Assembly: GCF_006384975.1 (NCBI RefSeq) | Contig: NZ_CP021645.1 | Span: forward strand, 2,260,001 to 2,324,000 | Reading direction: 5' to 3' | From: Pseudomonas oryzihabitans | GTDB taxonomy: Bacteria; Pseudomonadota; Gammaproteobacteria; Pseudomonadales; Pseudomonadaceae | Length of the DNA: 64,000 nucleotides | In this document: piece after piece, positions 45,328 through 62,023 of the stretch | Layout: each line of letters opens with the position of its first letter | Position numbering within the stretch: position 1 is the first letter of the stretch | Made by a program: the position numbers and the translations under genes | Notes under the pieces: generated by a model | What the model saw: the letters and a program-made list of their open reading frames with translations, nothing else | Told to the model about the DNA's origin: nothing | The model's database searches: none

Positions 45328-46176
45328 ATGCTCAAGCGCTCGCTGGCCCTGGCAGCAGGCCTGGCCCTGTCCCTCACCTCCCTGCTCTCCCATGCCACCG
45401 ACGAGCTGCGCGTCTCGGCCATTCCCGACGAGGCGCCCACCGAGCTGATCCGCAAGTTCAAGCCGCTGGGTGAATACCTGGAACAGCGCCTGGGCATGCC
45501 GGTGAAATTCATTCCGGTGTCCGACTATGCCGGCGTGGTGGAAGCCATGGCCGCGGATCGCCTGGACCTGGCCTGGTTCGGCGGTTTCACCTTCGTCCAG
45601 GCGCAGCGCAAGGCACCGATGATCCCCCTGGTGCAGCGCGAGGAAGATCAGAAGTTCACCAGCAAATTCATCACCGCCGACCCGGCCGTGAAGACCCTGC
45701 AGGATCTCAAGGGCAAGACCTTCGCCTTCGGCTCGGTATCGTCCACCTCGGGCAGCCTGATGCCGCGCTACTTCCTGCAGCAGGACGGTATCGTCCCCGA
45801 GCAATTCTTCTCGCGGGTGGCCTATTCCGGCGCCCATGACGCCACCGTCGCCTGGGTCGCCGCCGGCAAGGCCGACGCCGGGGTGCTCAATGCATCGGTG
45901 TGGAAGAAGCTGGTCGATGCCGGCAAGGTCGACACCAGCAAGGTACGGGTGATCGCCACCACCCCGACCTACTACGACTACAACTGGACGGTGCGCGGCA
46001 ACCTGGACCCGCAGCTGGCTGCCAAGATCAAGCAGGCCTTCCTCGACCTGGACCCGGCCAAGCCGGCGGACAAGGCCATTCTCGATCTGCAGGCGGCCAC
46101 TCGCTTCGTGCCGACCTCGCCGGACAACTACAAGGGCATCGAGGCTTCCGCCCTGGCGGCCGGCCTGCTCAAGTGA
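45328..46176 (+). CDS. Putative selenate/phosphonate-type ABC transporter binding protein
   Basis: Periplasmic PhnD-fold protein of 282 residues with a signal peptide (about 1-23, LLSHA then TDELRVSAIPDE). Motifs WFGGFTFVQAQ and FAFGSVSSTSGSLMPRYFL are typical of oxyanion binders of the PhnD/PtxB group. A subgroup of these transporters is linked to selenium genes and annotated as selenate-type; selA lies right behind this operon, which favours that reading. Phosphite or phosphonate remain possible, but no phn lyase genes are here. A TATACT -10 lies at 45283-45288. Confidence 0.8.
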   Translation: MLKRSLALAAGLALSLTSLLSHATDELRVSAIPDEAPTELIRKFKPLGEYLEQRLGMPVKFIPVSDYAGVVEAMAADRLDLAWFGGFTFVQAQRKAPMIPLVQREEDQKFTSKFITADPAVKTLQDLKGKTFAFGSVSSTSGSLMPRYFLQQDGIVPEQFFSRVAYSGAHDATVAWVAAGKADAGVLNASVWKKLVDAGKVDTSKVRVIATTPTYYDYNWTVRGNLDPQLAAKIKQAFLDLDPAKPADKAILDLQAATRFVPTSPDNYKGIEASALAAGLLK

Positions 46177-46982
46177 GTCTCGCCCTCAGGGGCGTGACGC
46201 TGGTCCACGCCGACGGCTCGCCCGCCCTGGCCGACGTCGATCTGCACCTGGAACAGGGTGAGCAGGTCGCCCTGATCGGCCCCTCCGGCGCGGGCAAGAC
46301 CAGCCTGCTGCGGCTGCTGGCCACCGGGCTGCGTCCGGCTGCCGGGCAGTTGGAGGTGCTCGGCCAGGAGCCCTGGAGCCTGGGCAACCGGGCGCGGCGC
46401 CAGTTGCGCGCGCGCATCGGCCTGATCCATCAGGCTCCGCCCCTGCCGGCGCGCCAGAGAGTCATCACCGCCGTGCTCGCCGGGCGCCTCGGCCAGTGGT
46501 CGCTGGCGCGCAGCCTGGTCAGCCTGGTGCATCCGCTGGACACGGCCGGTGCCGCCGCGGTCCTGGCACCGCTGGATCTAGCCGACCGGCTATACGCCTC
46601 TTGCGACCAGCTTTCCGGTGGCCAATTGCAGCGCATCGGCATCGCCCGGGCGCTCTATCAGCAACCGCAATTGCTGCTCGCCGACGAACCCGTCTCGGCG
46701 ATGGACCCGGTGCTGGCCGGCCATACCCTGGACGTGCTGAGCGACGCCGCGACGCGCCAGGGCACCACCCTGGTCACCAGCCTGCACAATGTCGAGCTGG
46801 CGCTGCAGCGCTTTCCGCGCATCCTCGGCCTGCGCGCCGGCCGGCTGCTGTGGGACAAGCCCGCCAGTGCGGTGAGCGCCGCCGATCTCGCCGAGCTCTA
46901 TGCCAACGAGGGGCTGAGCACCGCCCTGCCGCAGGCGACAGCCGCTGCGGCCGAGACACCCCTCGACCTGCCGCGATGCTGA
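46173..46982 (+). CDS. ABC transporter ATPase, selenate/phosphonate type
   Basis: ATPase of 269 residues with GPSGAGKTSLLRLL, the signature LSGGQLQRIGIARAL and Walker B LLLADEPVSAMDP. The start is GTG at 46173, overlapping the TGA of the binding-protein gene in GTGA, so translation is coupled; the frame remains open far upstream inside the previous gene. The C-terminal tail ends in an Ala-rich stretch. It also overlaps the permease gene. Confidence 0.9.
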   Translation: MSLALRGVTLVHADGSPALADVDLHLEQGEQVALIGPSGAGKTSLLRLLATGLRPAAGQLEVLGQEPWSLGNRARRQLRARIGLIHQAPPLPARQRVITAVLAGRLGQWSLARSLVSLVHPLDTAGAAAVLAPLDLADRLYASCDQLSGGQLQRIGIARALYQQPQLLLADEPVSAMDPVLAGHTLDVLSDAATRQGTTLVTSLHNVELALQRFPRILGLRAGRLLWDKPASAVSAADLAELYANEGLSTALPQATAAAAETPLDLPRC

Positions 46983-48571
46983 ATCCGCCCTATCGGGACC
47001 CCGCCGCCCGGCCCCGCCTGCTGCTGACCCTGCTGGCACTGCTGTTGGCCTGGCCGACGCTGCACCTGGCAGAATTCGATCTCCTTGGTCTCTTCAGCGG
47101 CGACAACGCCCGCACCATGGGTCTCTTCCTCGCCGGCTTCTGGCCACCCGCCCACGACGCCGACTTTCTCGCCGTGCTGGGGCGCGCCACCCTGGAGACT
47201 CTGGCCATCGCCACCCTGGGCATGGCTCTGGCCGCACTCATCGCCCTGCCCGCCGCCCTGCTCGCCACCCGCGCCCTGTCGATCTCCGCCCTGCCCCGCG
47301 CCGGTCGGCCGGGACGGCTACCGCGGCTACTGCGCGGTCTGATCCGCGGTGTGCTGATCGTCTTGCGCAGCGTGCCGGAGATCGTCTGGGCGCTGCTGTT
47401 CGTCCGCGCCGTGGGCCTGGGCCCCACCGCCGGGGTGCTGGCCATCGCCATCACCTATGGCGGCATGCTCGGCAAGGTCTACGCGGAGATCTTCGAATCG
47501 GTCGATCCGCGCCCGGCGCGCGCCCTGCTGCTGCAAGGCGCGGGGCGCTTGCAGGCGTTCGTCTACGGCGTGCTGCCCAATGCCGCCAGCGAGATGATTT
47601 CCTACAGCGTCTATCGCTGGGAATGCGCCATCCGCGCCTCGGTGGTGATGGGCTTCGTCGGCGCCGGCGGCCTCGGCCAGCAGGTCGACCTGTCGTTGCG
47701 CATGTTCGCCGGCGGCGAGGTGGCCAGCCTGTTGCTGACCTTCCTGCTGTTGGTGCTGCTGGCCGATGTGCTGAGCCGCCTGCTGCGCCTGGCGGAGCGC
47801 GGCCAGGGCCGTGGTCGCGGATTGCTAACGGTTGCCGCGATGGGCGTCGCCCTGGTGGCCTCCGTCGGCTATCTGGGCACTGCCTTCGGCGAATTGCTCA
47901 GTGCCCGCGCCCTGGGCCAGATGGGTCGTTTTCTCGCCGACTTCCTCAGGCCCGACTTCTCCCTCGGCCAACTGACCGCCGTGGCCCGCGGCGCCGTGGA
48001 AACCCTGGCGATGTCGGCCCTGGGTACCCTACTCGCCGGGCTGCTCGGACTGTCGCTGGCCCTGCCGGCAGCCGGTCGCCTTGGCCTGGCTGCCCTGGCG
48101 CTGGCCCGACTGCTGCTCAATGCCCTGCGCGCCGTGCCCGAGCTGGTCTGGGCGGCGCTGATGGTCTTGGCGGCGGGACTGGGGCCCAATGCCGGGACCC
48201 TGGCCCTGGCGTTGCACACTGCCGGGGTACTGGGTCGGCTGTTTGCCGAGGCCCTGGAAAACACGCCCAAGGCACCGGCCGTGGCGATCCGCCTGGCCGG
48301 GGGCGGCCCGCTGACGGCCTTTCTCTACGGCACCCTGCCGGCGGTCTGGCCGCAGTTGCTGGCCTATCTGCTCTATCGCTGGGAAAACAACATCCGCATG
48401 GCCAGCATCCTCGGCTTCGTCGGCGCGGGCGGCCTGGGACAGCAGCTGTATTTCAGCCTCAGCCTGTTCCAGCAGGCTCAGGCCGCCACCGTGATCCTCG
48501 GCATGCTGGTGCTGGTGTTGGGCGTGGATGGGTTGAGCAATTGGGCCCGGCAGCGTTGGGTGGTCCGTTAG
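46976..48571 (+). CDS. Fused double permease of selenate/phosphonate-type ABC transporter
   Basis: A 531-residue membrane protein that is two PhnE-like permeases in one chain. Each half ends with the same block: SVYRWECAIRASVVMGFVGA then GGLGQQ in the first half, and LLYRWENNIRMASILGFVGA then GGLGQQ in the second. Each is preceded by an EAA-type loop (LPNAASEMISY; LPAVWPQLLAY). The transporter therefore needs only one permease gene. The start ATG at 46976 overlaps the ATPase gene by 7 bp. It converges on selA with 8 bp between. Confidence 0.9.
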   Translation: MLNPPYRDPAARPRLLLTLLALLLAWPTLHLAEFDLLGLFSGDNARTMGLFLAGFWPPAHDADFLAVLGRATLETLAIATLGMALAALIALPAALLATRALSISALPRAGRPGRLPRLLRGLIRGVLIVLRSVPEIVWALLFVRAVGLGPTAGVLAIAITYGGMLGKVYAEIFESVDPRPARALLLQGAGRLQAFVYGVLPNAASEMISYSVYRWECAIRASVVMGFVGAGGLGQQVDLSLRMFAGGEVASLLLTFLLLVLLADVLSRLLRLAERGQGRGRGLLTVAAMGVALVASVGYLGTAFGELLSARALGQMGRFLADFLRPDFSLGQLTAVARGAVETLAMSALGTLLAGLLGLSLALPAAGRLGLAALALARLLLNALRAVPELVWAALMVLAAGLGPNAGTLALALHTAGVLGRLFAEALENTPKAPAVAIRLAGGGPLTAFLYGTLPAVWPQLLAYLLYRWENNIRMASILGFVGAGGLGQQLYFSLSLFQQAQAATVILGMLVLVLGVDGLSNWARQRWVVR

Positions 48572-48579
48572 GCGTTCGG

Positions 48580-49989
48580 CTAGCGGATCTCCGGCAGCAG
48601 CAACTCCGGCAACTGGGCGAGGAAATTCGCTTCGTCGTCGAGCTGGCGCAGGTCCAGCCAGAGGGCGTCGGCGTCGATCCGGCCCACCACCGGGATGGGT
48701 AGCTGACGCAGGCCCTCTTCCAACTGTCGCAGGGCACGCCCACGCAGCCGCTTGCTGACCTGGGGGCGACAGCGCAGCGCCGCGCCGGGCAGTCGCGCCA
48801 CCGGCTGGGCGCCGCTGCCGATCATGCCCAGGGCCGGCTCCACACTGACCGCGTAGGTATCGCCCAGGACGGCGGCGAAGGTCGGCAACAGCCGCTGGGC
48901 CTGGGTGGTGATGTCCGCAGCCGGGCGCGACAGCAGACGCAGGCTGGGCAGCCGCTCGGCCAGCCGATCCGGATCGCGATAGAGCGCCAGGGTCGCCTCC
49001 AGGGCGGCCAGGGTCAGCTTGTCCACCCGCAGGGCGCGCTTGAGCGGATTCTTCTTGATGCGCTCGATGAGGTCGCGGCGGCCGACGATGAGGCCGCACT
49101 GGGGCCCACCGAGCAGTTTGTCGCCACTGAAGGTGACCAGGTCCGCACCGTCGCGCAGGGCCTGCTGCACCGTGGGTTCGGCCGGCAGGCCCCAACGGGT
49201 CAGGTCCACCAGGGTGCCGCTGCCCAGATCTTCCAGCAGGGGCACCTGGTGGGCGCGGGCAATGGCGGCCAATTCGGGAGTGGCGACGCTGGCAGTGAAA
49301 CCCTGCACGCTGTAGTTGCTGGTATGGACCCGCATCAGCAGCGCGGTGCGCGGGCCGATGGCGGCTTCGTAGTCGCGGGCATGGGTGCGATTGGTGGTAC
49401 CCACCTCCACCAGCTTGACCCCGGCGCGGGCCATGATGTCGGGGATGCGGAAGGCGCCGCCGATCTCGATCAGCTCGCCGCGGGACAGCACTCCCTCCTT
49501 ACGCGCGCCGATGGCGTGCAGGGCCAGCAGCACGGCGGCGGCGTTGTTGTTGACCACGGTTACCGCTTCGGCACCGGTGAGTTCGCGCACCAGCTCGGCC
49601 ACCAGGTCGTCGCGATCACCGCGCTTGCCGGTGGCCAGGTCGAATTCCAGATTCATCGGCTGGCGCGCCGCCTCAATCACCGCGGCGATGGCTTCCTCCG
49701 CCAGCAATGCCCGGCCCAGGTTGGTGTGCAATACCGTCCCGGTCAGATTGAACACCCGGCGCACCCGCGGCCGGCTGCTCAGGGCCAGGCGTTCGCCCAG
49801 CCGCCCGGCCAGTACGCCCTCTTCCACTTCCACGGCGGTGAGGGTGCCGGCTCTCAGGGCTTCGCGCAGATCGTCCAGCAACGAGCGGTAGCCACCGAGG
49901 ACCTGCTCGCGGCCATGGCGCTCCTCCAGCGGACGCGAAGCGGGATGGCGCAGCAGGCGGTCGATGGAGGGCAGGCGGATGGCGGTCAT
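48580..49989 (-). CDS. selA: Selenocysteine synthase SelA
   Basis: PLP enzyme of 469 residues that converts Ser-tRNA(Sec) to Sec-tRNA(Sec) with selenophosphate. The N-terminal tRNA-binding part ([13 protein letters not shown]) precedes the fold type I domain, with [18 protein letters not shown] and the Schiff-base lysine in [14 protein letters not shown]. It is complete. selB and a selenoprotein gene are not in the window, but its presence implies the host makes selenocysteine. Confidence 0.97.
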
Positions 49990-50131
49990 GAAGGCCTCTT
50001 GGGTCGCGTCGATCCCCAGTGTAGCCCGAACTCCCGGCGGGTCGACCCCGCCTCCCGTCGTCCGCCCAGCTTGGCCGGAGCGACGCGGCGCCAGACCTCC
50101 AGCGTCTGGAAATGACCTCCGGGTTCCCGGT

Positions 50132-50160
50132 TTGCCGCGCGCCAGAGCCCGTCCTAGGAT
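50132..50160 (+). promoter_or_regulatory. Candidate promoter of the lipase-like gene
   Basis: TTGCCG, a 17-bp spacer and TAGGAT. Transcription would begin near 50167, which excludes earlier in-frame starts of the lipase-like gene at 49964-50159 and supports the later start. Confidence 0.5.
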
Positions 50161-50245
50161 GGATTTTCAGGCCTTTTGCGCCCCGGCAGTCGAAGGCTTG
50201 GCGACGACCATGCCCACCGTCCACGACAACAACAAAGGTGCCGTC

Positions 50246-51337
50246 ATGTCCAAGAAAGCGTCCCCCTGGGCGAGCGATACCCTGTTCGATAACAGCGACA
50301 TCGTCAGCCTCGGCAACTTCACCTATCTGCACACCCTGCAGACCACCGCCGCGCAACCGACCCAGCAGACCGCCCTGGCCGCCACGCCAACGGTGAGCGA
50401 ATTCCTCAACGGCGCCATCAGCGAATACGTGCTGGGTGGCACCCCGGATGGCATGCGGCCGTTCCTGGTCGATGGCCATCAAATGACGCTGCACAACTCG
50501 CTCAACGGCGCGGTGGCTCACACCTGGGTCACTGCCGAGAACCAGATCCTCATCACCTACGCCGGCACGACTAGAGGCGAGAATCTGCTGATCGATCCCC
50601 TGGCCACGGCGGGCGGCCTGCTCAGCGACCTGCAAATCCTCAGCCAGCAGGTCTCCAGTGCGCAGCGGCAGTCGCTGGGGTTCGCCCATCAGGTCATCGA
50701 GGCGGCGGCCAAGCAGGGCTACGGCACCCAGGACATCTTCGTCACCGGCCATTCCTTGGGCGGCATCTCGGCGGAATACGTCGCCCAGCAGACCGGCCTC
50801 GGCGGCATCAGCTTCGAGGCCTCGGGCATTCCCCGCGATGCCCAAGCCGCGGGCCACGGCGGCAACTTCGTCAATGTGGTCACCCTCGGTGATCCGGTAG
50901 CCAACTACAGCTCCGACATCCGTGGCGAGCAGCCTTTCGCCCCCACCTTCGTCAGCCAGGCCGAGGGTGGTGGCAGCCTGCCGCACTATGGCTCGCTGTT
51001 TTTGATCGGTGCCCAGTCCGACCAGCACGATCTGACCCAGGCCGCGGCCAAGGTGGGCCATCTGTTCAACGGCGACAACGGCGGCCAGGTCAGGCCGGTG
51101 GATGCCGCCCTGCATCCGCTCAGCGTGGCGGCAGGCTTGGCCGAGGCGGTGCGACTGGTCGCCGAATTCCACCTGCCGGCCGCCGAATACACCAACCTGG
51201 GGGTGACGCCCACCGGCGGCTTCCTCGACACCCTGCCCGCCCATATCGGCACGGCCCATGGGCCGGTGCTGATGGTCGGCAACTACAGCGTGGCGGAACT
51301 GCAGGCCTTTGCCGAGACCCACGCGACCTTCGGCTAG
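50246..51337 (+). CDS. Lipase-like alpha/beta hydrolase, no signal peptide
   Basis: A 363-residue protein with the nucleophile elbow GHSLGG (S170). Candidate acid D216 (VVTLGDPVANY) and base H247 (SLPHYGSLF) complete a class-3-lipase-like triad; ITYAGTTRGENLLIDPL resembles the strand before it. It has no signal peptide, lipobox or RTX nonapeptides, so if exported it would need a type I or type VI route. The start could also be 50210. It stands alone, followed by an ankyrin-repeat gene 93 bp on. Substrate unknown. Confidence 0.7.
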   Translation: MSKKASPWASDTLFDNSDIVSLGNFTYLHTLQTTAAQPTQQTALAATPTVSEFLNGAISEYVLGGTPDGMRPFLVDGHQMTLHNSLNGAVAHTWVTAENQILITYAGTTRGENLLIDPLATAGGLLSDLQILSQQVSSAQRQSLGFAHQVIEAAAKQGYGTQDIFVTGHSLGGISAEYVAQQTGLGGISFEASGIPRDAQAAGHGGNFVNVVTLGDPVANYSSDIRGEQPFAPTFVSQAEGGGSLPHYGSLFLIGAQSDQHDLTQAAAKVGHLFNGDNGGQVRPVDAALHPLSVAAGLAEAVRLVAEFHLPAAEYTNLGVTPTGGFLDTLPAHIGTAHGPVLMVGNYSVAELQAFAETHATFG

Positions 51338-51955: not shown

Positions 51956-52879
51956 TCAGCGCTTCTGGTAGCGATAAAAGAGGTTGGGTTCGCTGACCAC
52001 ATAGAGGTTGCCCGCCGTATCCAGGGTGACCCCTTCGGGCTGGCGGATACGCCGCGACAGGCCGCCGAAGGGGGCCAGCAGGGAGCGGGTATCCAGGGTG
52101 CGGCCCTCATCGTCGAGTTCGATCAGCATGCGCGATTCGTCGCTGAGCAACAGCAGGTGGCCGGTGCGGCGGTCGACATGGATGGCGGATAGATCGCCGG
52201 TGGCCGGCGCCTGGTCCAGCCAGGCCTGGCGATCGATGATGCGCAGGGCGAAGTCGCCATCGAAGCTCTTGAGCAGGCCGCGGATTTCATAGAGCTTGCG
52301 CGGTGAGTGCTCCTTGACCACGTAGAGGCGATCCCGGGCCGCGTCATAGTCCAGCCCTTCGAAACCCTGGTTGCCGCGGGGGAAGAGATCCAGGGTCAGG
52401 CTGCGATAGTCGCTACGGTGCAGGACATCGTCACCTTCGGGAATATTCACCAGGGTCAGGGCATTGGCGCCCTCTTCCGCCAGCAGCAGGCGGTCGTTGC
52501 CCAGATAGGTGACGCCCTCGACGTCGTCGAAGCCTTCCAGGCGGTGCCGCTCCAGCAGAGCGCCGTCACGACTCAGGGCCAGCAGTTCCGGTGGATTATT
52601 GACCACCGCCCACAGCCGGTCGCGCACCGGGTCGTAGCTGAGATCGGAGAGGTTCTCGCTGATGCCGACCACCGGCTTGGCTTCCACCACTACCCGGTAG
52701 CGGCCGAGTTCCAATGAAGTACGAGGCTCGCTCTGCCATTGCTGGCCGAGCCAGAACAGCAGTTGGCTATCCAGGTGGCTACTGCGCAGCCCCTGGGTGA
52801 GCCCCAGCGCCAGCAGCAGGGCCAGGCCCAGTAGCCAGCCCGTTCGGCCAATCCTGATCCGCCTTACCCATGCCGTCAT
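51956..52879 (-). CDS. SdiA-regulated-domain protein (beta-propeller, membrane-anchored)
   Basis: A 307-residue protein with one N-terminal membrane helix (about 13-32) and a periplasmic SdiA-regulated domain, a calcium-binding-type beta-propeller. Repeating blades are visible: NLSDLSYDPVRDRLWAVVNN, EGVTYLGNDRLLLAEEGANA, EGLDYDAARDRLYVVKEHSP, EGVTLDTAGNLYVVSEPN. The function is unknown. It lies 68 bp downstream of the Pls-like synthetase on the same strand and meets the ankyrin gene end to end. Confidence 0.85.
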   Translation of the reverse strand: MTAWVRRIRIGRTGWLLGLALLLALGLTQGLRSSHLDSQLLFWLGQQWQSEPRTSLELGRYRVVVEAKPVVGISENLSDLSYDPVRDRLWAVVNNPPELLALSRDGALLERHRLEGFDDVEGVTYLGNDRLLLAEEGANALTLVNIPEGDDVLHRSDYRSLTLDLFPRGNQGFEGLDYDAARDRLYVVKEHSPRKLYEIRGLLKSFDGDFALRIIDRQAWLDQAPATGDLSAIHVDRRTGHLLLLSDESRMLIELDDEGRTLDTRSLLAPFGGLSRRIRQPEGVTLDTAGNLYVVSEPNLFYRYQKR

Positions 52880-52947: not shown

Positions 52948-55900
52948 TCAGCGGCGCGGCTGGACCGGGTTACCTTCCCAGCGCGACCGTGCCGGCAGGG
53001 TTTCGCCCTTCATCACCAGTGACAGCGGGCCCAGCTCCACGTTGTCGCCGACCTGGGCGCCATAGAGCACCACGCTACGCGGCCCCAGGTTGACGCCCTT
53101 GCCCAGCTCGACTTCACCGACCTTCATCACCCGGTCTTCGAACAGGTGGGTCTGGGGCCCGGCCAGGGCGTTGAGTTCGCCATGGTCGCCGAGGCGCACG
53201 CAGTCGAATTCGGTGAGGTCGGTGGTATCCAGGTAGGTACCGCGGCCCAGGCGCGCGCCGAGCAGGCGCAGGGCCAGCGGCAGCCAGGGCGTACCGCGCA
53301 GGGGAGCGAGCAGGTTGGGCACCGCCAGGGTTTCGTAGAGGCTGGTGATGGCCTCGCTACGCCAGACGAAGAAGGTCCACATGGGCGCCGAACGCGGACG
53401 ATAGCGCCCCACCACCAGCCATTTGAGCGCCAGCACCACCCCGAAGCTGGCCAGGGCGAAGAGACTACCGGCCGCCAGGGTCTCGCCCAGCAGACTCAGC
53501 CAGGCGCCCTGCTGCCACAGCGGCACCAGGGCTTCGGCGATGGCGCAGCCGGCGGCCACGGTGAAGCCGGTGGGCAGCACGATACGCAGGGCTTCGATCA
53601 GGCCGCGGACCAAGCGGCGCCAGGGCGCCGGGCGGAAGGTCAGGCTTTCCGGGTAGCCCGTGAGGGTTTCCCGCGCCGGCAGCCGCACCGCCGGCGAGCC
53701 GAGCCAGGTCTCGCCCTGGCGCAGGGGCACGCCTTCGTCGAGGCGTCCCAGCACACCGACCAGGGCATCCTCGGGGATATGGCAGCCATCGGCCACGTAG
53801 GCGCCATTGCCGACGAAGCTGCGGCGGGAGACGGAGGTTCTTTTGAGAGTGATCCAGCCCTGGGCGATCTGCTCGTCCCCCAGCATCACGGCATCGGCGA
53901 TAAAGGTCTCGTCACCCAGCTCCAGCAACGAGGACACCGGCCCTGCGGCGGTGGAGATCTCCGCGTCACGCCCGACCCGGGCGCCCAGCAGACGGTACCA
54001 AAGGGACGAATAGACCGTGGCATAGAGCCCCTGCAGACTTTGCAGCGCCGATTCCTGGATCAGGTTGGCCAGCCACTTGCGCCAGTAGAAGAGACTGTCG
54101 ATCGACCACTGGCCTTCTTCCAGGCGCGGCAGGATCAGCCGACGCGCCAGGGCGCAGCCGAGCAGGGTCAGGGCGACACTGACCACGCCCAGCGGCAGGG
54201 CCAGCACGCCGTACTGCACGGCGTCGAGCACCAGCGAAGAGGTGTGCCACCAGGGTAGGCCACCGAGGTTTTCCAGCTGGTCGATCAGCAGCGCCAGGGG
54301 GAACAGCGGCATGAAGAACAGTACGGATACCGCCAGGCCGCTCACCGCATAGAGTCCGTTCAGCAGACTGCGCCTGGCCCGGGAGCTGGCCGCCGGCGGG
54401 ACGATGCGAGCGCCCACGGCGCCCTGGTCATGGGCCGGGGCACCGCCCCAGTTACGCCCCGCCGGGACGCTCTGCCCGGCGCGCAGCGCGGATTGGGCCT
54501 GCAGCCGACCCCTGTCACCGATGGCGGTGTCGCCTTCGAGGATGGCATAGGAGCCGACCTGGGCTTCCTGGCCGAGGGTCACGGCGCCGAGCAGCAACTC
54601 ACCACGCAGCACCCGGGCGTTCTCGAAGTTGACGCCGTTGCCCAGGCTGACGCCCTGCCCCAGGGTCAGCAACTCGGGCACGCGCAGGGTGATGGTGCCG
54701 ATGAACGCCTGGTCACCCACCTTGGCCCCCAGCAAGCGCAACCAGCCACGCGCCAGCGGCGAGCCGCTGAGCAGATAGGCCGGTGCCATAGCCAGGAAGC
54801 GCTCGCCGAGCCACCAGCGGTAGTAGGTCAGGCCCCACAGTGGATAACGTCCAGCTTCCAGGCGACCGGTCAGGCGTTTACCGACCAGGGCCACGGCGAA
54901 TTCCAGGCCGATGGCTAGGACGAACAGCCCCAGGGCGGTCAACATGGCCAGCGGCAGCGCCGTGCCGGAATGGATCAGCAGGGGGAAGGCCAGGAAGGGC
55001 GCCAGCCAGCGCCCCAGGCGCAGGGTCAGCAGCGGCGGCAAGGCTACCGCCTGGGCCAGCCCACAACGCCAACGCCGCCAGCGACTGGGCGGGGCCCAGG
55101 CCTCGGTGGCCGTGGCCTGGCCCGCTTGCTCAGCATCGGCTTCGAGGGCCTCGGCGATGGCGCCCAGGGTCCGGCCGGCATAGACCGCCTTGACCGTGGC
55201 GCTGGCATAGCGCGGGTCCTGGCGCAGCCGCGAGACCAGGCGGGCGGCGAACAGCGAGTGGCCACCCAGGTCATCGAAGAAATCCAGCTCGGTCTGCAAG
55301 GGCTGGCCGGGGAACAGCTCGGCGGTGGCCGCCAGCACCGCACCCAGCGCGCCGCTGGCCGCGGCAACCGGGGCCACGGCGGCGATGGCCAGCGGGCGGG
55401 CGCGCAGTTGCTTGCGGTCGATCTTGCCGGAATTCAGTCGCGGCATCTCGCTGAGCCACTCGAAGCGACTCGGCACCATGTACAGCGGCAGGCAGCCGGC
55501 CAGTTCGGTCCGCAAGAGATCGCTACGCGGCGCCGGGCCGCCATCGCCGACCATGAAGGCCACCAGTTGCTCCACGCCACCCTCTTCGCGGAGCACCACG
55601 GCCACGGTGCCCACGCCGGGTTGGCGGGCCAGGGTGGCTTCGATCTCGCCCAGTTCGACGCGATAGCCGCGGATCTTCACCTGATCATCGACCCGGCCCA
55701 GGCAATGCACCTGACCCTGGGCATCGACCCGCGCCAGGTCACCGGTGCGATAGAGCTTGAGGTCGTGGCTGCCGCTGCTCCAGGGATTGGCGAGGAATTT
55801 CTCGGCGGTCAAATCCGGCCGGCCCAGGTAGCCATCGGCAACACCCGGACCGGTGATGCAGAGTTCGCCCACCTGCTCGCGCGGCAGCAGCGCCAGCGGC

Positions 55901-56943
55901 TGGCTGGCATCGGCAGGCACCACCAGCAGGCTGTAGTTGGGCAGCGGACGACCGATGGTCACCGGCTCGCCCGGCTGCAATGGCGCCAGGCTCGCCGAAA
56001 CGGTGGCCTCGCTCGGCCCATAGGTGTTGAACAGCCGTCGCTGGGGTCGGCTCCAGCGCGCCACCAGCGGCTCCGGGCACATCTCGCCGCCGAGGTTGAT
56101 CAGGCGCAGGCTGGGCACGTCTTCCGGCAGCAGCGCCAGCAGGGTCGGCACCACGTGCAGGACGCTGATGCGATTGGCGGTCAGCGCCCGGGCCAGGGCC
56201 TCGGGATCGGCGGTGATTTCCCGCGGGGCCAGCCAGAGGGTGGCGCCTACCAGGTAGCTGATCCAGATCTCTTCGAAGGACATGTCGAAGGCCACCGAGA
56301 AGCCTTGGTAGACCCGGTCGCCGGCCTCGATGCCGAGCAGCGCATTCTCGCTGCGCAGGAAGTGGCAGATGCTGTCCTGGCGGATACCGATGCCCTTGGG
56401 CTTGCCGGTGGAGCCGGAGGTGTAGATGAGGTAGGCCAGATTGTCCGGCGACACCTGACCGCGGCGGCGCAGGGTCTCGTCGGCCGCCAGGGGCGCGCTC
56501 AGCAGATCGGGGGTCCAGCACTGCAGGCCGGGGCGCGCCAGCAGGTCGGCGAAGGGCGCCCCGGTGATCACGCCCACCGCCTGGGCATCTTCCAGGCACA
56601 GCGCCACGCGCTCGACCGGGGTCTCGGCATCGCAGGGCAGCCAGGCGGCGCCGGTCTTGGCGATGGCCAGTTGCATCACCAGCAGCTCGATGCCGCGCGG
56701 TAACCAAAGGCCCACTACCCGACCGGGCCCGGCACCGGCCGCCAGCAGCCGCGAGGCGGCGCGATCGGCCCAGGCGTCCAGCTCGCCGTAGCTCAGGCTG
56801 CGCTCGCCTTCGAGCAGGGCGGGCCGCTCCGGCGCACGGGCCGCGGTGGCCTCGAACAGATCGGCGAGGACTTCATCGCGGCACAGGTCGGGACGGGCAG
56901 CGCCTTCGACCAGACTGAGGGAGAGTTCGGCAAGCGCTTCCAT
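52948..56943 (-). CDS. Pls/PosA-type membrane non-ribosomal peptide synthetase
   Basis: A 1331-residue enzyme with the plan of epsilon-poly-lysine synthetase. Residues 1-520 are an adenylation domain (YLIYTSGSTGKPKG at 171-184, NTYGPSE at 306-312, YRTGDLA near 398, catalytic K507 in LNSGKIDRK). Residues 535-605 are a carrier domain, with the pantetheine serine S563 in GGHSLFAA. Then come three repeats of two membrane helices plus a left-handed beta-helix: helices near 640-686, 860-932 and 1112-1178; beta-helices near 735-835, 985-1085 and 1225-1330. There is no condensation or thioesterase domain. By-eye specificity residues are D220, M221, E224, H263, I282, L284, T307, V315, S316, K507; Glu at the third place suggests a basic amino acid. 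Confidence 0.9.
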   Translation of the reverse strand: MEALAELSLSLVEGAARPDLCRDEVLADLFEATAARAPERPALLEGERSLSYGELDAWADRAASRLLAAGAGPGRVVGLWLPRGIELLVMQLAIAKTGAAWLPCDAETPVERVALCLEDAQAVGVITGAPFADLLARPGLQCWTPDLLSAPLAADETLRRRGQVSPDNLAYLIYTSGSTGKPKGIGIRQDSICHFLRSENALLGIEAGDRVYQGFSVAFDMSFEEIWISYLVGATLWLAPREITADPEALARALTANRISVLHVVPTLLALLPEDVPSLRLINLGGEMCPEPLVARWSRPQRRLFNTYGPSEATVSASLAPLQPGEPVTIGRPLPNYSLLVVPADASQPLALLPREQVGELCITGPGVADGYLGRPDLTAEKFLANPWSSGSHDLKLYRTGDLARVDAQGQVHCLGRVDDQVKIRGYRVELGEIEATLARQPGVGTVAVVLREEGGVEQLVAFMVGDGGPAPRSDLLRTELAGCLPLYMVPSRFEWLSEMPRLNSGKIDRKQLRARPLAIAAVAPVAAASGALGAVLAATAELFPGQPLQTELDFFDDLGGHSLFAARLVSRLRQDPRYASATVKAVYAGRTLGAIAEALEADAEQAGQATATEAWAPPSRWRRWRCGLAQAVALPPLLTLRLGRWLAPFLAFPLLIHSGTALPLAMLTALGLFVLAIGLEFAVALVGKRLTGRLEAGRYPLWGLTYYRWWLGERFLAMAPAYLLSGSPLARGWLRLLGAKVGDQAFIGTITLRVPELLTLGQGVSLGNGVNFENARVLRGELLLGAVTLGQEAQVGSYAILEGDTAIGDRGRLQAQSALRAGQSVPAGRNWGGAPAHDQGAVGARIVPPAASSRARRSLLNGLYAVSGLAVSVLFFMPLFPLALLIDQLENLGGLPWWHTSSLVLDAVQYGVLALPLGVVSVALTLLGCALARRLILPRLEEGQWSIDSLFYWRKWLANLIQESALQSLQGLYATVYSSLWYRLLGARVGRDAEISTAAGPVSSLLELGDETFIADAVMLGDEQIAQGWITLKRTSVSRRSFVGNGAYVADGCHIPEDALVGVLGRLDEGVPLRQGETWLGSPAVRLPARETLTGYPESLTFRPAPWRRLVRGLIEALRIVLPTGFTVAAGCAIAEALVPLWQQGAWLSLLGETLAAGSLFALASFGVVLALKWLVVGRYRPRSAPMWTFFVWRSEAITSLYETLAVPNLLAPLRGTPWLPLALRLLGARLGRGTYLDTTDLTEFDCVRLGDHGELNALAGPQTHLFEDRVMKVGEVELGKGVNLGPRSVVLYGAQVGDNVELGPLSLVMKGETLPARSRWEGNPVQPRR

Positions 56944-56996
56944 GGGGACAGCCTCTGGTTGTTTAGCGCAGTGTGTATCTCTCCGGTTACGCGCTC

Positions 56997-57024
56997 CTTA
57001 AGGCGGGCTTAGGGTTTGCTTAAG
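56997..57024. promoter_or_regulatory. Triple CTTAAG repeat, PmrA-box-like
   Basis: CTTAAG (56997-57002), CTTAGG (57008-57013) and CTTAAG (57019-57024) recur at exactly 11 bp, i.e. hexamer-N5-hexamer-N5-hexamer, the geometry of PmrA boxes. On the minus strand the nearest copy sits where a -35 would be: GATACA follows after 17 bp. The array is 54-81 bp upstream of the Pls-like start and directly after the porin gene. Confidence 0.65.
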
Positions 57025-57039
57025 GCGAGGTGGCGTGGC

Positions 57040-58275
57040 TTATAGAAGGCTCAAGGGATAGCTGACGATGACCCGATTCTCGTCGTAATCGAGGTTACTG
57101 AAGTCACGCCTCACGCTGGCGTTGCGCCAGCGCAGCGACAGATCCTTGAGGGCGCCGCTCTTGAACACATAGGCCAGCTCGGACTCACGCACCCATTCGC
57201 GGCCATCCCGCACTTTGGCCAGGCGCACGTCGTCGCCCCTGACGTAACGGGTCATGAGCGACAGCCCAGGCAGGCCCAGACCGGTGAAGTCATAGTCGTA
57301 CCTGAGTTGCCAGGAGCTTTCGTGGGGGTTGTCGAAGGCTGTGTTGAAGGTATTGTTGGCCAGGTAGATCCCGCCCGTGCCGTTCACCCTCATCCAGCCA
57401 GTCGCGCCCTGGTTGAGCTGGCGCCCCAGGCTGAAGACCTGCGCGCCGCTGCGCAGCGACACCAGCAACGAATAGGTGGTGTTGTCCAGATCTCCCGCCA
57501 GCGCCCGCCCCGTCTCCCGACCGCGATAGACGCCGAGGTTGGCGTCGAGCCGCCGGTCGCCGCCCAGCGGTAGGCTCTGGATCACCCCCAGATAGTGCTG
57601 TCGATAGACATCTTCCAGTTCGCCGCTCCAAAGGCGCAGGGTGGTCCTGGTCGCGGCGATCTCGTAGTCGGCGCCGACGAAGTCGAAGCTATCCGCGGCG
57701 ATCTTGCCGTATCCCAGCTTCTCCAGACTGTCGTCGCTGCGCAGGCTGGTGCGCCGAAAGCGGCCGAGTTGGAGCTTTAGATCTTTGATCTCGGTCGAGG
57801 TCAGTTGCATGCCCTCGAAGGTCTGCGGCAGCGCACGGAAGTCGTCGGCATTGAGCAGCGGTAGATTGGGCATCCACTCGCCGTACTTGAATTCGGTCTT
57901 GGCAAAGCGGGCCTTGGCGGCCAGGCCAAGTCTGCCGAAATCCGCGGCGGGCTCACCGTCGCTGTGGCGCGGCAGCAACAGGGCGCCATAACGTCCGGCT
58001 CCGCCATCGAGCTTGACCGCGTACTTGCCCAGCACATCGACGCCAAAACCCACGGGGCCGGGCGTGAAACCCGAACGGGCATCGAGGATGAAGCCCTGGG
58101 TCCACTCTCGCGCCTGGTCGAGTGGATAGCTCTGCTGGGTGAAGTCGCGCTGGAAAAAGAAGTTGCGAAAGGTCAGGACCGCACGGGAATCCTCGAGGAA
58201 ACCGGCTGCCTCGGCCTGACCAGTCAGGACGGCGAGGCTCAACAGCAGGAAGCGCTGGGCAAGACGAACGACCAT
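57040..58275 (-). CDS. OprD-family outer-membrane porin
   Basis: Substrate-specific porin of 411 residues. A signal peptide (about 1-23, cleavage after AEA) is followed by GFLEDSRAVLTFRNFFFQRD, the hallmark start of mature OprD proteins, and alternating beta-strands through the length. The C-terminus is IVSYPLSLL, ending in Leu instead of the usual Phe. Placement after the DHDPS-family and MFS genes suggests it admits the acid that they transport and degrade. AGGAG precedes the ATG. Confidence 0.93.
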   Translation of the reverse strand: MVVRLAQRFLLLSLAVLTGQAEAAGFLEDSRAVLTFRNFFFQRDFTQQSYPLDQAREWTQGFILDARSGFTPGPVGFGVDVLGKYAVKLDGGAGRYGALLLPRHSDGEPAADFGRLGLAAKARFAKTEFKYGEWMPNLPLLNADDFRALPQTFEGMQLTSTEIKDLKLQLGRFRRTSLRSDDSLEKLGYGKIAADSFDFVGADYEIAATRTTLRLWSGELEDVYRQHYLGVIQSLPLGGDRRLDANLGVYRGRETGRALAGDLDNTTYSLLVSLRSGAQVFSLGRQLNQGATGWMRVNGTGGIYLANNTFNTAFDNPHESSWQLRYDYDFTGLGLPGLSLMTRYVRGDDVRLAKVRDGREWVRESELAYVFKSGALKDLSLRWRNASVRRDFSNLDYDENRVIVSYPLSLL

Positions 58276-58427
58276 GGCAAGTACTCCTAATTATAATTGT
58301 CGAGTCGTTGCGAACGGGTACGGCGCTGCCGTCCGCAGGGCAGTCGGCAGTTGCAGAAATGAGCGAGGGTGCCAGGAGTGCAACTTGGCGCCGCGTCCGG
58401 ACAGGAGAACCCGGTCCGGGCGGGCGA

Positions 58428-58451
58428 CCCGCGCCGAGGACCCGGCGCGGG
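58428..58451. terminator. GC-rich hairpin after the DHDPS-family gene
   Basis: CCCGCGCCG and CGGCGCGGG form a perfect 9-bp stem with a 6-nt loop, 10 bp past the gene end, in the 185-bp gap before the porin gene. There is no T-run, so partial termination or mRNA-end protection is likelier than full termination. Confidence 0.5.
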
Positions 58452-58460
58452 CGGTAACGG

Positions 58461-59381
58461 TCAGATCAAGCCGGCGAATTTGAGCGCCTCGGCGATCTCG
58501 CGATCGGCCCCCTCCTGCAGCGGCAGCAGCGGCGAACGCACGGTGGCGTGTTCGAGGATGCCGCGCGCGACCAGGCCATGCTTGAGCGCCACGGTGCCTT
58601 CCATGTGCGATCCGCGGTGATAGACGCTCTTGGTCAGCGGCAGCAGGCGATCGTGCAGTTCGCGCGCCCGGGCATAGTCCTTGGCCTTGCCGGCGGCGAT
58701 CAGCTCGATGAGCAGTTCCGGGGCGATGTTGCCGTAGCCGACCAGGGCGCCATCCACGTCGAACATGGTGTGCAGCAGGTATTCGTCGTGGCAGGTCAGC
58801 ACCGGTACATTCGGCCGCTCCTTGCGGAACACCGGGATCTCGGTGTCCCAGCGACGCATGTTGCGCACCCCGTTCTTCATGGCGATGACGCCCGGCTGGG
58901 CGGCGATGTCGAGCAGCGTCTGCAGGTTGTAGGTGGCCTTGGTGACATCGGGGTACTGGAACAGGATCAGCGGCAGGCCGCTCTCTTCGTGGATGGCCTT
59001 GTAGCGATCCTGGGGGGCGCCGTCCTGGTAGCCGAAACGCAGCCAGCCGTGGGACGGATAGACCAGCCCGGCCGAGGCGCCGGCGGCCACCGCCCGCTTG
59101 GCTTCCAGGGCCGCTACCTGGGTCCCTTCCCCGGTGATGCCGGCGATGATCGGCAGGCGGTCACCGACCGACTCGCGGAAGCTGCGAATCACCGCGCACT
59201 GTTCGTCGGCGGTGAGGAAGGTGCCCTCCCCGGCATGCCCGAGGATCACCAGCCCCTTGACGCCCTCGAAGCCGGCCAGCCAGGAGCCGAGTTTCTGGAT
59301 GGCGGCATGATCCACTTCGCCGTCGCGGGTGAAGGGAGTGACGGGGGCCGGAACCAAGCCTTTCAGATCGAAGTTTTTCAT
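58461..59381 (-). CDS. Dihydrodipicolinate synthase-family aldolase/dehydratase
   Basis: A 306-residue TIM-barrel lyase. The Schiff-base lysine is K169 (GVIAMKNG), the catalytic tyrosine Y143 (LFQYPD), and the substrate loop GHAGEGTFLT lies at 48-57. It is not the biosynthetic DapA: the loop has HAGEG rather than TTGE. Catabolic relatives split or dehydrate keto-sugar acids or aromatic pyruvate adducts. The start MKNFDLKGLVPAPVTPF is used; the longer frame reaches into the transporter gene. Confidence 0.88.
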   Translation of the reverse strand: MKNFDLKGLVPAPVTPFTRDGEVDHAAIQKLGSWLAGFEGVKGLVILGHAGEGTFLTADEQCAVIRSFRESVGDRLPIIAGITGEGTQVAALEAKRAVAAGASAGLVYPSHGWLRFGYQDGAPQDRYKAIHEESGLPLILFQYPDVTKATYNLQTLLDIAAQPGVIAMKNGVRNMRRWDTEIPVFRKERPNVPVLTCHDEYLLHTMFDVDGALVGYGNIAPELLIELIAAGKAKDYARARELHDRLLPLTKSVYHRGSHMEGTVALKHGLVARGILEHATVRSPLLPLQEGADREIAEALKFAGLI

Positions 59382-59454
59382 CTTGTTCTTCCTTTTGCTT
59401 GCACAGGGGGTTGTCCGCATTTGGCGTATGCGGGGACGCGGTAAAACGGATCGT

Positions 59455-60888
59455 TCAGGGCGACAGCTCTTCCAACACCTTGCCCTTGGTCTCGATGGCG
59501 AACAGCGCGGCCACCCCGGCAGTGGCCAGCAGCACCCCGGCGAAGGCGGCGAACACCAGGTGCACGCCGTAGCCGCCGATGATGAAACCCACCAGGATCG
59601 GGCCAGTGGCCGAGCCCAGGCGCAGCCAGGCACTGCCGACACCGGTACCGATGGCGCGCAGCCGGGTGGGATAGAGTTCGGCCGAATAGAGGTACAGCGA
59701 GAAGGTCACGGTCTGCACCGCGGCATAGGCCAGCGCGGCCAGCACCAGCACCTGGGTAGCGGAAGTAGCGCCGAGGGTGGCCAGGGCCAGCAAGGGCACG
59801 CAGGCCACCAGCAACGCCAGTACATACCAGCGCTTGCGCCCGACCCGGTCGATACAGAGGGCGCAGATCACCGCGGCGACCACACCCAGGGCCGAGGTCA
59901 TGAAGCCGTAGGACAGACTGGTGTGCAGCGGCAGCTTGAAGGTCTCGCGATAGAGCGTCGGCAGCCAGGTGATCAGGCCGTTGGCGACCATGTAGGAACC
60001 GAACCAGAGCGCCCAGATGACCAGGGTGCGGCGGCAATAGACCCGGCTGAAGAGCTCACGCCAGTTGCTCTGTCCGGACGTGGCCACGGCCTTGACCGGT
60101 ACCGGCTCCGGCAGGGCTTTGCCACTGGCCAGGACGCTGCGCTCCAGCCGCGCAACGATTTGATCCGCTTCCGCGTAGCGCCCCTTGGACGCCAGCCAAC
60201 GGGGGGATTCCAGCAACAACAGACGCAGCGGAATCATCAGGATGGCGGGGATCAGGCCGACGACGAACATGGCCTTCCAACCATACAGGGGCACCAGCAG
60301 GTAGCCGATCGCCCCGGCCCCGACCAGGCCGAACAGGAACATCACCTCATAGAGCAGGAAGAACCGCCCGCGCTTCCTGGAGCCTATGTATTCGTTGATA
60401 TAGGCGCTGGCGACCGGCACCTCGCCGCCCGTGCCTATTCCCTGCAGGAAACGGAACAGCATCAGCGAGCCGGCGCTCCAGGCGAACAGGCAGGCCAGAT
60501 CCATGGCGACGAACAGCAGGATGGTGAAGGTCAGAACCCGCAACCGCCCCACCCGCTCCGCCAGCCAGCCGAAGCACACCGCGCCGATCAACTGCCCCAG
60601 GTAACCGAACGCCAGGATCATGCCGATCTGCGCGGGGGTCAGACTCCATTCCTTCACCAGTACCGGCATGGCGTAGGCGATGGCGATCACCGTGTAGCCA
60701 TCGAAGAAGGTAGCGGCACCTATGACGTTGCGGGTCCAGAACACCCGCCGGGTAATGGGCAGGCGTTCGATGCGCGCACTGATATCCGCCTGCTCGGCGG
60801 CGAGGGTTGGAGCGGCGACGGCTGCCGCGGGATGCGTCGTCGCCGCGGACTGCGAATGGGGGCCTAGGGCCGAAGGTTCGGTCAACAT
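59455..60888 (-). CDS. MFS transporter, sugar/organic-acid:H+ symporter type
   Basis: Twelve-helix carrier of 477 residues with a long cytoplasmic N-terminus (about 50 residues). Conserved loops are GWLAERVGRLRV between helices 2 and 3, FLQGIGTGGEVPVASAYINE in helix 4, and ESPRWLASKGRYAEADQIV after helix 6, a sugar-porter-like PESPRWL signature. It stands between an IclR regulator and the DHDPS-family gene, and presumably imports the substrate of that pathway. Confidence 0.92.
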   Translation of the reverse strand: MLTEPSALGPHSQSAATTHPAAAVAAPTLAAEQADISARIERLPITRRVFWTRNVIGAATFFDGYTVIAIAYAMPVLVKEWSLTPAQIGMILAFGYLGQLIGAVCFGWLAERVGRLRVLTFTILLFVAMDLACLFAWSAGSLMLFRFLQGIGTGGEVPVASAYINEYIGSRKRGRFFLLYEVMFLFGLVGAGAIGYLLVPLYGWKAMFVVGLIPAILMIPLRLLLLESPRWLASKGRYAEADQIVARLERSVLASGKALPEPVPVKAVATSGQSNWRELFSRVYCRRTLVIWALWFGSYMVANGLITWLPTLYRETFKLPLHTSLSYGFMTSALGVVAAVICALCIDRVGRKRWYVLALLVACVPLLALATLGATSATQVLVLAALAYAAVQTVTFSLYLYSAELYPTRLRAIGTGVGSAWLRLGSATGPILVGFIIGGYGVHLVFAAFAGVLLATAGVAALFAIETKGKVLEELSP

Positions 60889-61020
60889 GGAGCGTCCTCT
60901 TGTTGTTATGTGAAATCTGCTGGAACAGCGGTCGTTGAACCTCTTTCTCGGGGTGTAGCGACCCGCGCCCCTGCCCGAGGCAGGAACGAAGGCGTGAATC
61001 CGTAAGGGCGGCGGCCGGCG

Positions 61021-61854
61021 CTAGAGCGTGAAACCTATGCTGCCGCTGGCCGCCACGGCACCGGCGATCTGGCGGGCCGCCGCACTGGCCATGTCCAGGG
61101 CCCGCTCGCGCAGGTCGTCCGCCGAGCAGCGGACCATGGGTGCCGCGATGCTGATGGCGCCAATCGGATAGCGCTCGGTGTCCAGCACCGGCACGGCCAG
61201 GATCAGCAGGCCCTCGGTGAACAGCGAAGGCGACAGGGCATAGCCCTGAGCGCGAATGCCGGCGAGCCGTTCGGCGAGGTCGGTCGGCTGTTGCGCTGGC
61301 TGCCAGGCGGGTGCGCTATCGCGGTTCTGGGCCTCGATCTTCTGCAACTCGGCGGGTGGCAGGAAGGCCAGCATCGACTGACCAATGGCGGTCTGGGTCG
61401 CGGGTACGGTGGTGCCAATGCGGATATCCACCCCCAGACGGGTGATGCCGGCGCGGACCCGCTCGATGTAGAGCACATCGACGCCATTGAGCACGGCGAA
61501 ACTCGCCGCCTCCTGGGTCTCGCTGACCAGGCCCTTGAGGATGGGTCTGACCAGGCTCCGCAAGTCACGGCGCGCGATGGCGTGGAAACCCAGGTCCAGC
61601 ACCCGCAGCGTGAGGCTGAAGCGACGACTCTCCGGCAGGCGCGCCACATAGCCCAGGTCGACCAGGGTATTGAGCATGCGGAAGGTGGTGCCCGGGTCCA
61701 ACTCGGCCGCCTGGGCGATCTGCGACAGGGTCATTTCCTCCTGCTCGCTGGAAAAGGCCTCCAGCACCCGGAAGCCCTTGGCCAGGGACTGCACGGTATT
61801 TCTCAGGCGCTTGTCGTCGCCATCGAGGATCGTCTCCGAAGTCTTGGTCGCCAT
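61021..61854 (-). CDS. IclR-family transcriptional regulator
   Basis: A 277-residue regulator with an N-terminal winged HTH (VQSLAKGFRVLEAFSSEQEE, LSQIAQAAELDPGTTFRML) and the IclR effector domain (GTTVPATQTAIGQSMLAFLP, PIGAISIAAPM). The ATG at 61854 is chosen; a GTG two codons earlier is nearly as good. Family members bind carboxylic acid or sugar acid effectors. It heads the MFS, DHDPS-family and OprD genes, with 132 bp before the MFS gene. Confidence 0.92.
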   Translation of the reverse strand: MATKTSETILDGDDKRLRNTVQSLAKGFRVLEAFSSEQEEMTLSQIAQAAELDPGTTFRMLNTLVDLGYVARLPESRRFSLTLRVLDLGFHAIARRDLRSLVRPILKGLVSETQEAASFAVLNGVDVLYIERVRAGITRLGVDIRIGTTVPATQTAIGQSMLAFLPPAELQKIEAQNRDSAPAWQPAQQPTDLAERLAGIRAQGYALSPSLFTEGLLILAVPVLDTERYPIGAISIAAPMVRCSADDLRERALDMASAAARQIAGAVAASGSIGFTL

Positions 61855-61878
61855 GGTCACCTGCCTGATATTTTTTGT

Positions 61879-61904
61879 TTTTTCGGATTGCGAAAAATAT
61901 TTCG
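61879..61904. promoter_or_regulatory. Candidate IclR operator
   Basis: TTTTTCG-N5-CGAAAAA (61879-61897) overlaps CGAAA-N4-TTTCG (61891-61904), so three alternating half-sites lie 25-50 bp upstream of the regulator start in an AT-rich stretch. This suits autoregulation by the IclR-type dimer of dimers. The remainder of the 215-bp gap to katG holds only the katG terminator. Confidence 0.5.
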
Positions 61905-62023
61905 TTCTATTAGGATAACACTATCCCTCCCTGCGGCCAGCTATCTTTGGTTATAGATGGCTAGCTTTTAATTACCTCAATTTGCTTACTCACCGCTGCC
62001 CTGCCAGCGGTTTTTGCTCCAGG

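Follow-up and report, generated by a model that had tools for sequence, protein, structure and literature searches.

The window analyzed here, the whole stretch of 64,000 nucleotides from Pseudomonas oryzihabitans (assembly GCF_006384975.1, contig NZ_CP021645.1, positions 2,260,001 to 2,324,000 of the forward strand), lies in a genome of 5.36 Mb assembled as a single contig. It carries a gene for a synthetase of the Pls/PosA family, hereafter the posA-like gene, preceded by an operator-like element that is conserved among relatives (Table 1).

The domain plan and fold class of the posA-like protein were computed directly. The protein matched TIGR02353, "Pls/PosA family non-ribosomal peptide synthetase", over residues 630-1327 (687.7 bits; cut-off, 423.1), as well as the adenylation subfamily TIGR01733 (both NCBIfam). 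Pfam placed AMP-binding at residues 30-373 and AMP-binding_C at 433-507, together with hexapeptide repeats, and gave no match to a condensation or thioesterase family. The carrier domain did not reach the 1e-3 limit when the protein was searched at full length and scored 23.9 bits, against a Pfam cut-off of 20.8, when the piece was excised. The C-terminal domain of ~700 residues was modeled by AlphaFold2 (predicted template modeling score 0.87) as six long helices in three pairs plus three beta-helix segments, while hydropathy alone gave five stretches as compared with the six modeled helices. In fold comparison, this domain resembled hexapeptide acyltransferases, in rows that cover mainly the first beta-helix and not the helices. 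Eight residues (R709, R984, D1017, N1046, R1113, T1218, Q1264, and H1266) were invariant in 35/35 aligned family rows, 8 of which are near-identical, and may include catalytic residues. These data bear out the original prediction of an adenylation domain, a carrier, and three helix/left-handed beta-helix repeats without a condensation or thioesterase domain. The protein belongs to the Pls/PosA family and has the adenylation-thiolation order; this membership is not new, as public annotation already names "Pls/PosA family".

Table 1. Coordinates of the posA-like gene, its domains, the predicted operator, and neighboring features in the window
Feature	Position	Strand	Remarks
Predicted BqsR/PmrA-class operator, CTTAAG-N5-CCTAAG-N5-CTTAAG	56997..57024	-	54-81 bases before ATG
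posA-like gene, Pls/PosA-family synthetase, 1331 residues	52948..56943	-	Stop codon included; open reading frame fills these coordinates exactly, intact
Adenylation domain, about residues 26-515	55399..56868	-	Code DMEHNGTVSK; A10 lysine K507
Carrier (thiolation) domain, residues 545-600	55144..55311	-	Phosphopantetheine site S563; PF00550 on excised piece; GGHS at 560-563
C-terminal repeat 1, about residues 621-851	54391..55083	-	Two long helices plus left-handed beta-helix
C-terminal repeat 2, about residues 855-1091	53671..54381	-	
C-terminal repeat 3, about residues 1107-1331	52951..53625	-	Holds Q1264 and H1266
SdiA-regulated (YjiK-like, PF06977) gene	51956..52879	-	68 bases downstream of the posA-like gene
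OprD-family porin gene	57040..58275	-	Upstream of the posA-like gene; part of a 5-kb block

Substrate pocket and phylogeny

The best PDB match was the adenylation core of Acinetobacter baumannii PosA (8g95, 525.7 bits), with the adenylation domain of Streptomyces Pls (7wew) at 250.9 bits. Pls, the epsilon-poly-L-lysine synthetase first proposed as the model, thus shares the family and the domain plan, and the closest relative is PosA instead. When aligned to 8g95, the code residues were D220, M221, E224, H263, N283, G285, T307, V315, S316, and K507, which match the published PosA code DMEHNGTVSK at 10/10 positions (PMC10522769). A code read earlier by eye, DMEHILTVSK, was right at eight positions; at positions five and six, a one-residue slip had put I-L in place of their neighbors N-G.

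Work on PosA indicates what these residues do. The D217A and E221A mutants are inactive, T304A and S313A lower activity 33- and 183-fold, and M218A raises lysine use nearly tenfold; D-ornithine serves about half as well as L-ornithine, lysine is a weak substrate, and activity on diaminobutyrate is low (PMC10522769). Lysine enzymes are described in the same report as having Ala at the second code position, the mark of a lysine pocket; the posA-like protein has Met221 there. In a survey of 204 homolog rows (8 incomplete), not de-duplicated and biased to near kin since they were found with the posA-like protein, Met held this position in 196/196 complete rows besides the window and 8g95, and 173/196 were identical to PosA at the nine positions tested. 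All ten code residues were kept in 8/8 aligned rows of the window genus. For calibration, among rows from plasmid records, two beside diaminobutyrate transaminase genes read DFECLSAVTK (L127) and DFECLSVVTK (L132), and one beside an M1 metallopeptidase gene (L130) read DAESIGTVVK, a lysine-type code.

Phylogenetic placement, also computed directly, used an unrooted maximum-likelihood tree of 35 rows, rooted only for drawing, from which Pls itself is absent. The posA-like protein fell on PosA's side of a 100/100 branch along with 24 other rows, so that this side holds 8 rows of the window genus, A. baumannii PosA, L121 and L122 from the same order, P0121 and L120, 11 betaproteobacterial rows, and one row from a contig labeled Eremiobacterota. 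The A. baumannii row (L123) is the true PosA, as its adenylation core matches 8g95 at 100% identity across 403 residues; at full length it is 49.1% identical to the posA-like protein. On the opposite side of the branch were rows with the codes DAESIGTVVK (L129 and L130), DFECLS[AV]VTK (L127 and L132), DSECYGGVTK (L133), and others, and the lysine-type row L130, outside PosA's side, was 34.5% identical to the posA-like protein. P0121 (Pseudomonas sp. CCI1.2) and L120, of the same family, branched among betaproteobacterial rows apart from the window genus, which suggests separate histories within the family.

Two other rows deserve mention in their own right. The synthetase of Streptomyces sp. 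NBC_00060 (L133, 1913-5932) has the arginine-type code DSECYGGVTK, which has been reported for a Bdellovibrionales enzyme with modest arginine activity (PMC10522769). The synthetase on the contig labeled Candidatus Eremiobacterota (L114, 3547-7509) sits among betaproteobacterial rows and could reflect either a misbinned contig or transfer.

From its pocket, the posA-like enzyme very probably uses ornithine, and its product is likely delta-poly-L-ornithine, as in Acinetobacter. The basic substrate originally foreseen stands as a cationic monomer, with ornithine rather than lysine favored by the 10/10 PosA code. It is improbable that a cationic homopolymer synthetase of this family here takes lysine, diaminobutyrate, or a different basic amino acid as its monomer, in the manner of Streptomyces Pls: family membership and the weak lysine and low diaminobutyrate activities of PosA itself would allow it, but the code and the tree position are those of PosA, and M221 stands where lysine enzymes have Ala and the two rows adjacent to diaminobutyrate transaminase genes have Phe.

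A conserved operator-like element

The element before the posA-like gene can be read as the pentamers TTAAG-N6-CTAAG-N6-TTAAG with an 11-base period. Its repeats and their conservation were computed directly: the stretch before the ATG was conserved in 8/8 aligned sequences as CTTAAG-N5-CCTAA[GT]-N5-CTTAAG at -81 to -54, the middle pentamer being CTAAT in 4/8. None of 20000 dinucleotide shuffles of the 300 upstream bases gave the triple. Allowing one mismatch, a two-box pattern occurred 4 times in the whole window against 0.12 expected, these being two overlapping sites counted on both strands, all at the posA-like gene. Across genomes, the triple without mismatch, with CTAAG or CTAAT as its middle pentamer, lay at posA in each genus member that carries a synthetase (10/10); the 16 genomes searched gave no further copy, and the 3 genus genomes without a synthetase had none. 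A looser pair pattern was absent within 400 bases in the other related loci scanned. A scan for sigma-70 promoters around the posA-like gene found 0 sites (0.8 expected), an uninformative result.

This arrangement resembles the published BqsR operator, TTAAG-N6-TTAAG with an 11-base period, for which overlapping operators with common pentamers and additive effect are described (PMC4682146). Against that consensus, the element at posA has the right spacing and one or two mismatches per pair; the exact pair is absent there. Over the genome, the exact TTAAG-N6-TTAAG gave 2 and 5 matches, as compared with 1 and 3 for a reversed control, and CTTAAK-N5-YTTAAK with one mismatch gave 25 forward and 17 reverse matches, as compared with 11 and 14. 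Single pairs thus exceed chance only slightly; what stands out is the triple arrangement alone. The genes that follow other single sites, in the three places examined, included nothing linkable. Before A. baumannii posA, a candidate PmrA-type box (HTTAAD-N5-HTTAAD at -119) was considered and rejected as being at chance level (281/2000 shuffles); unlike the genus triple, the box-like pair there was reached by 281 and 129 of 2000 shuffles.

With up to 2 mismatches, the triple pattern occurred at two places in the genome, posA and a second site (G000:C1:1124349-1124387; L137 5350-5388), and the reversed control gave none. The second site has four tandem TTAAK pentamers with an 11-base period and just precedes an operon for a PepSY protein (PF03413), a small protein that by eye resembles it, a response regulator, and a histidine kinase. 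This operon resembles bqsPQRS, in which bqsP and bqsQ encode PepSY-like proteins, and it looks autoregulated. The genes bqsPQRS (PA2656-PA2659) form a four-gene operon, and BqsRS is also called CarRS (PMC12666569). A BqsR homolog is present in the genome (G000:C1:1123033-1123683); it scored 148.0 bits against BasR over the full length and at most 93.9 bits against PmrA receivers. Its best PDB matches, the "CarR" receiver 8gc6 (205.5 bits) and DNA-binding domain 9yfa (147.3 bits), are chains that we take to come from P. aeruginosa. Similar single sites lie before the genome's PmrA-like and QseB-like regulator genes, and PmrA-class boxes look much like the BqsR operator.

Independent support for an operator comes from three facts: the outcome of the shuffles, the conservation of the stretch, and what the second site proved to be. 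Because the element is operator-like and its only other match precedes a bqsPQRS-like operon, posA is predicted to fall under an Fe(II)/cationic-stress two-component system, with BqsR our first choice as regulator ahead of the PmrA-like and QseB-like proteins. Tentatively, and at somewhat less than even odds, we place the poly-ornithine synthetase of the P. oryzihabitans group in the Fe(II)/cationic-stress regulon of BqsR (or of a PmrA-class regulator), such that the polycation would be made when iron(II) or cationic antimicrobials are sensed.

Predicted activity and control

Our preferred reading, to which we assign a probability of about 87%, is that the posA-like gene encodes a PosA-type ornithine homopolymer synthetase, probably under BqsR/PmrA-class control. 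In the proposed mechanism, the adenylation domain would activate L-ornithine with ATP, D220 gripping the alpha-amine, E224, T307, and S316 gripping the delta-amine, and M221 capping the pocket against lysine. Ornithine would then be loaded onto a phosphopantetheine arm at S563, attached by a phosphopantetheinyl transferase (PPTase) whose gene lies elsewhere in the genome. The C-terminal domain, predicted to be membrane-embedded, would carry its three repeats of hexapeptide-acyltransferase-like left-handed beta-helix on six helices, bond the delta-amine of each unit to the carboxyl of the following one, and free a chain about ten residues long. Transcription would probably be turned on by a BqsR/PmrA-class response regulator in response to Fe(II) or cationic stress. 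The suggestion made at the outset, a cationic isopeptide homopolymer from a membrane-bound enzyme of this architecture, is in our assessment the best reading of the protein.

It is about as improbable as lysine loading that the enzyme instead makes a short ornithine oligomer attached to lipid A, a lipid, or another scaffold, the acyltransferase-like C-terminal domain transferring it to an envelope acceptor. A common fold is no proof of function, and PosA in detergent yields free polymer from ornithine (PMC10522769).

Several points count against a PosA-type synthetase under BqsR/PmrA-class control. On the side of the enzyme, ornithine over lysine is argued mainly by the adenylation-domain code, and the adenylation core is only about 59-60% identical to that of PosA. 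A row from Sphingomonas parapaucimobilis (L125, 2078-6085) has DMEHNGTVTK, 9/10 positions, yet lies outside PosA's side of the tree, so code and clade are not fully coincident. Beside the posA-like gene, neither a dedicated PPTase nor an exporter or polymer hydrolase was recognized. On the side of control, the triplet was read at the posA promoter and then searched for, which makes its perfect score there a matter of construction, and the triple without mismatch was missing from the 3 genomes of other genera that carry a synthetase (G062, G353, and G372). The middle pentamer at posA begins with C instead of T, and a C for T at position 1 of the upstream pentamer is the change reported to cut BqsR-dependent expression nearly 10-fold (PMC4682146). 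CTTAAG reads the same on both strands, and 56996-57014 was flagged on the plus strand in a scan for terminators (2 found in the region, 2.5 expected). Finally, the genome's PmrA-like and QseB-like regulators, which both score below curated cut-offs, may recognize such sites as well.

Partner genes, neighbors, and distribution

One PF01648 (PPTase) match was found in the window genome, away from the posA-like gene, and this single protein probably serves the posA-like enzyme and the other synthetases of the genome. Among 80 related loci, 42 had a same-strand downstream gene of one cluster; it was the nearest downstream open reading frame in 40/42, at -28 to 35 bases, and lay 1.5-1.7 kb away in 2/42. 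The only cluster member tested was a PPTase (PF01648), and L059 (12370-12945) is among the 42 cluster loci. Sphingomonas, Rhizobium, and Shinella records also annotate a PPTase downstream of the synthetase, and a PPTase gene adjoins the S. parapaucimobilis synthetase gene (L125). The 7 Pseudomonas loci had no gene of the PPTase cluster downstream of the synthetase.

Downstream of the posA-like gene, the SdiA-regulated gene lay 71-217 bases past the last sense codon of the synthetase in 7/7 named genus loci and is perhaps co-transcribed with it. At 1e-20 it was found in 0/73 other related loci within the stretch examined, some of these shortened by contig ends, and homologs of at least 51% identity are common among pseudomonads (best 120 of 743 matches). 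As a pathway partner it was therefore rejected, and we read its position as lineage synteny. Upstream, a 5-kb block (OprD, DHDPS family, MFS, and IclR; window 57027-62023) lies between a peroxidase gene (PF00141; katG by eye) and the posA-like gene and is absent at this site in 7/7 named relatives. The OprD porin was rejected as an exporter, as it belongs to this insertion, and it is unlikely to be part of the polymer system.

Elsewhere in the window, 49964-51337 has an alpha/beta-hydrolase match below cut-off with a lipase-like GHSLGG motif seen by eye, and lies near posA in 7/7 named relatives. At 45328-48571 are genes of a phosphonate-type ABC transporter, its binding protein assigned by PF12974 and its ATPase and permeases by eye; selA (48580-49989, PF03841) follows on the opposite strand.

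The posA-like protein is 92-96% identical to proteins of P. oryzihabitans, P. rhizoryzae, and further Pseudomonas records. TIGR02353 was above cut-off in 11/194 genomes, namely 10/13 of the window genus, its own included, and 1/181 others; weaker matches below cut-off in 174 more genomes were left out of this count. In a wider draw of the order, a match at 1e-180 was found in 5/390 genomes and 3/142 genera, two of the five genomes being from the window genus. The katG-like gene, the synthetase, and the SdiA-regulated gene were present in the same 10/13 genus genomes and, at the limits used, missing from the same 3/13, and so behave as a block. The least probable alternative, with only a very slight chance, is that the posA-like gene is silent or a non-functional relic: its occurrence outside the genus is sporadic, and the sequence upstream of ~57026 differs from 7/7 relatives through the 5-kb insertion, but the frame is uninterrupted in 10/13 genus genomes, the ten code residues are kept throughout the aligned genus rows, and the insertion ends just before the conserved operator-bearing stretch.

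Discussion

The closest known system is A. baumannii PosA (Patel and Gulick 2023, PMC10522769; PDB 8G95-8G98), which the posA-like protein matches in domain plan, ten code residues, and tree side. The two proteins are nearly equal in length (1332 and 1331 residues), and neither has a recognized biosynthetic partner gene alongside; they differ in overall identity, as given above, and in gene neighbors. Streptomyces Pls has the family and domain plan in common and differs by Ala at the second code position (PMC10522769) and in the adenylation-domain score to the posA-like protein. Among pseudomonads, 142 NAPAA clusters are reported as predicted over 225 P. viridiflava genomes (PMC13387001), a likeness by antiSMASH class name. 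The BqsR (CarR) regulon of P. aeruginosa shares with our element the TTAAG pentamers, the 6-bp spacer, and overlapping operators; it differs in that posA is not named in the available part of that account (PMC4682146) and in that the middle pentamer at posA deviates from the consensus.

Cationic isopeptide homopolymers are reported to be antimicrobial and are used as food preservatives. PosA is presented as the first such enzyme with a proven product among bacteria outside the actinomycetes (PMC10522769), and we encountered no second one. In agreement with the original prediction, no product assigned to a Pseudomonas member turned up in literature searches, mostly at title and abstract level. 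The posA-like gene would add one more enzyme of a described kind, whose product is probably also a known one, and the new part is the control element and the predicted induction condition. Should the operator prediction fail, an ordinary further member of a described family remains. The conserved predicted operator, together with a same-pocket ortholog in 10/13 genus genomes, supplies a concrete induction condition, Fe(II) and cationic stress, under which to seek the polymer and its role. If BqsR/PmrA-class control is true, the polymer may act as a surface shield, as a metal- or biofilm-modulating factor, or as an antifungal, and a regulatory signal would have been identified for a polycation synthetase of a Gram-negative bacterium.

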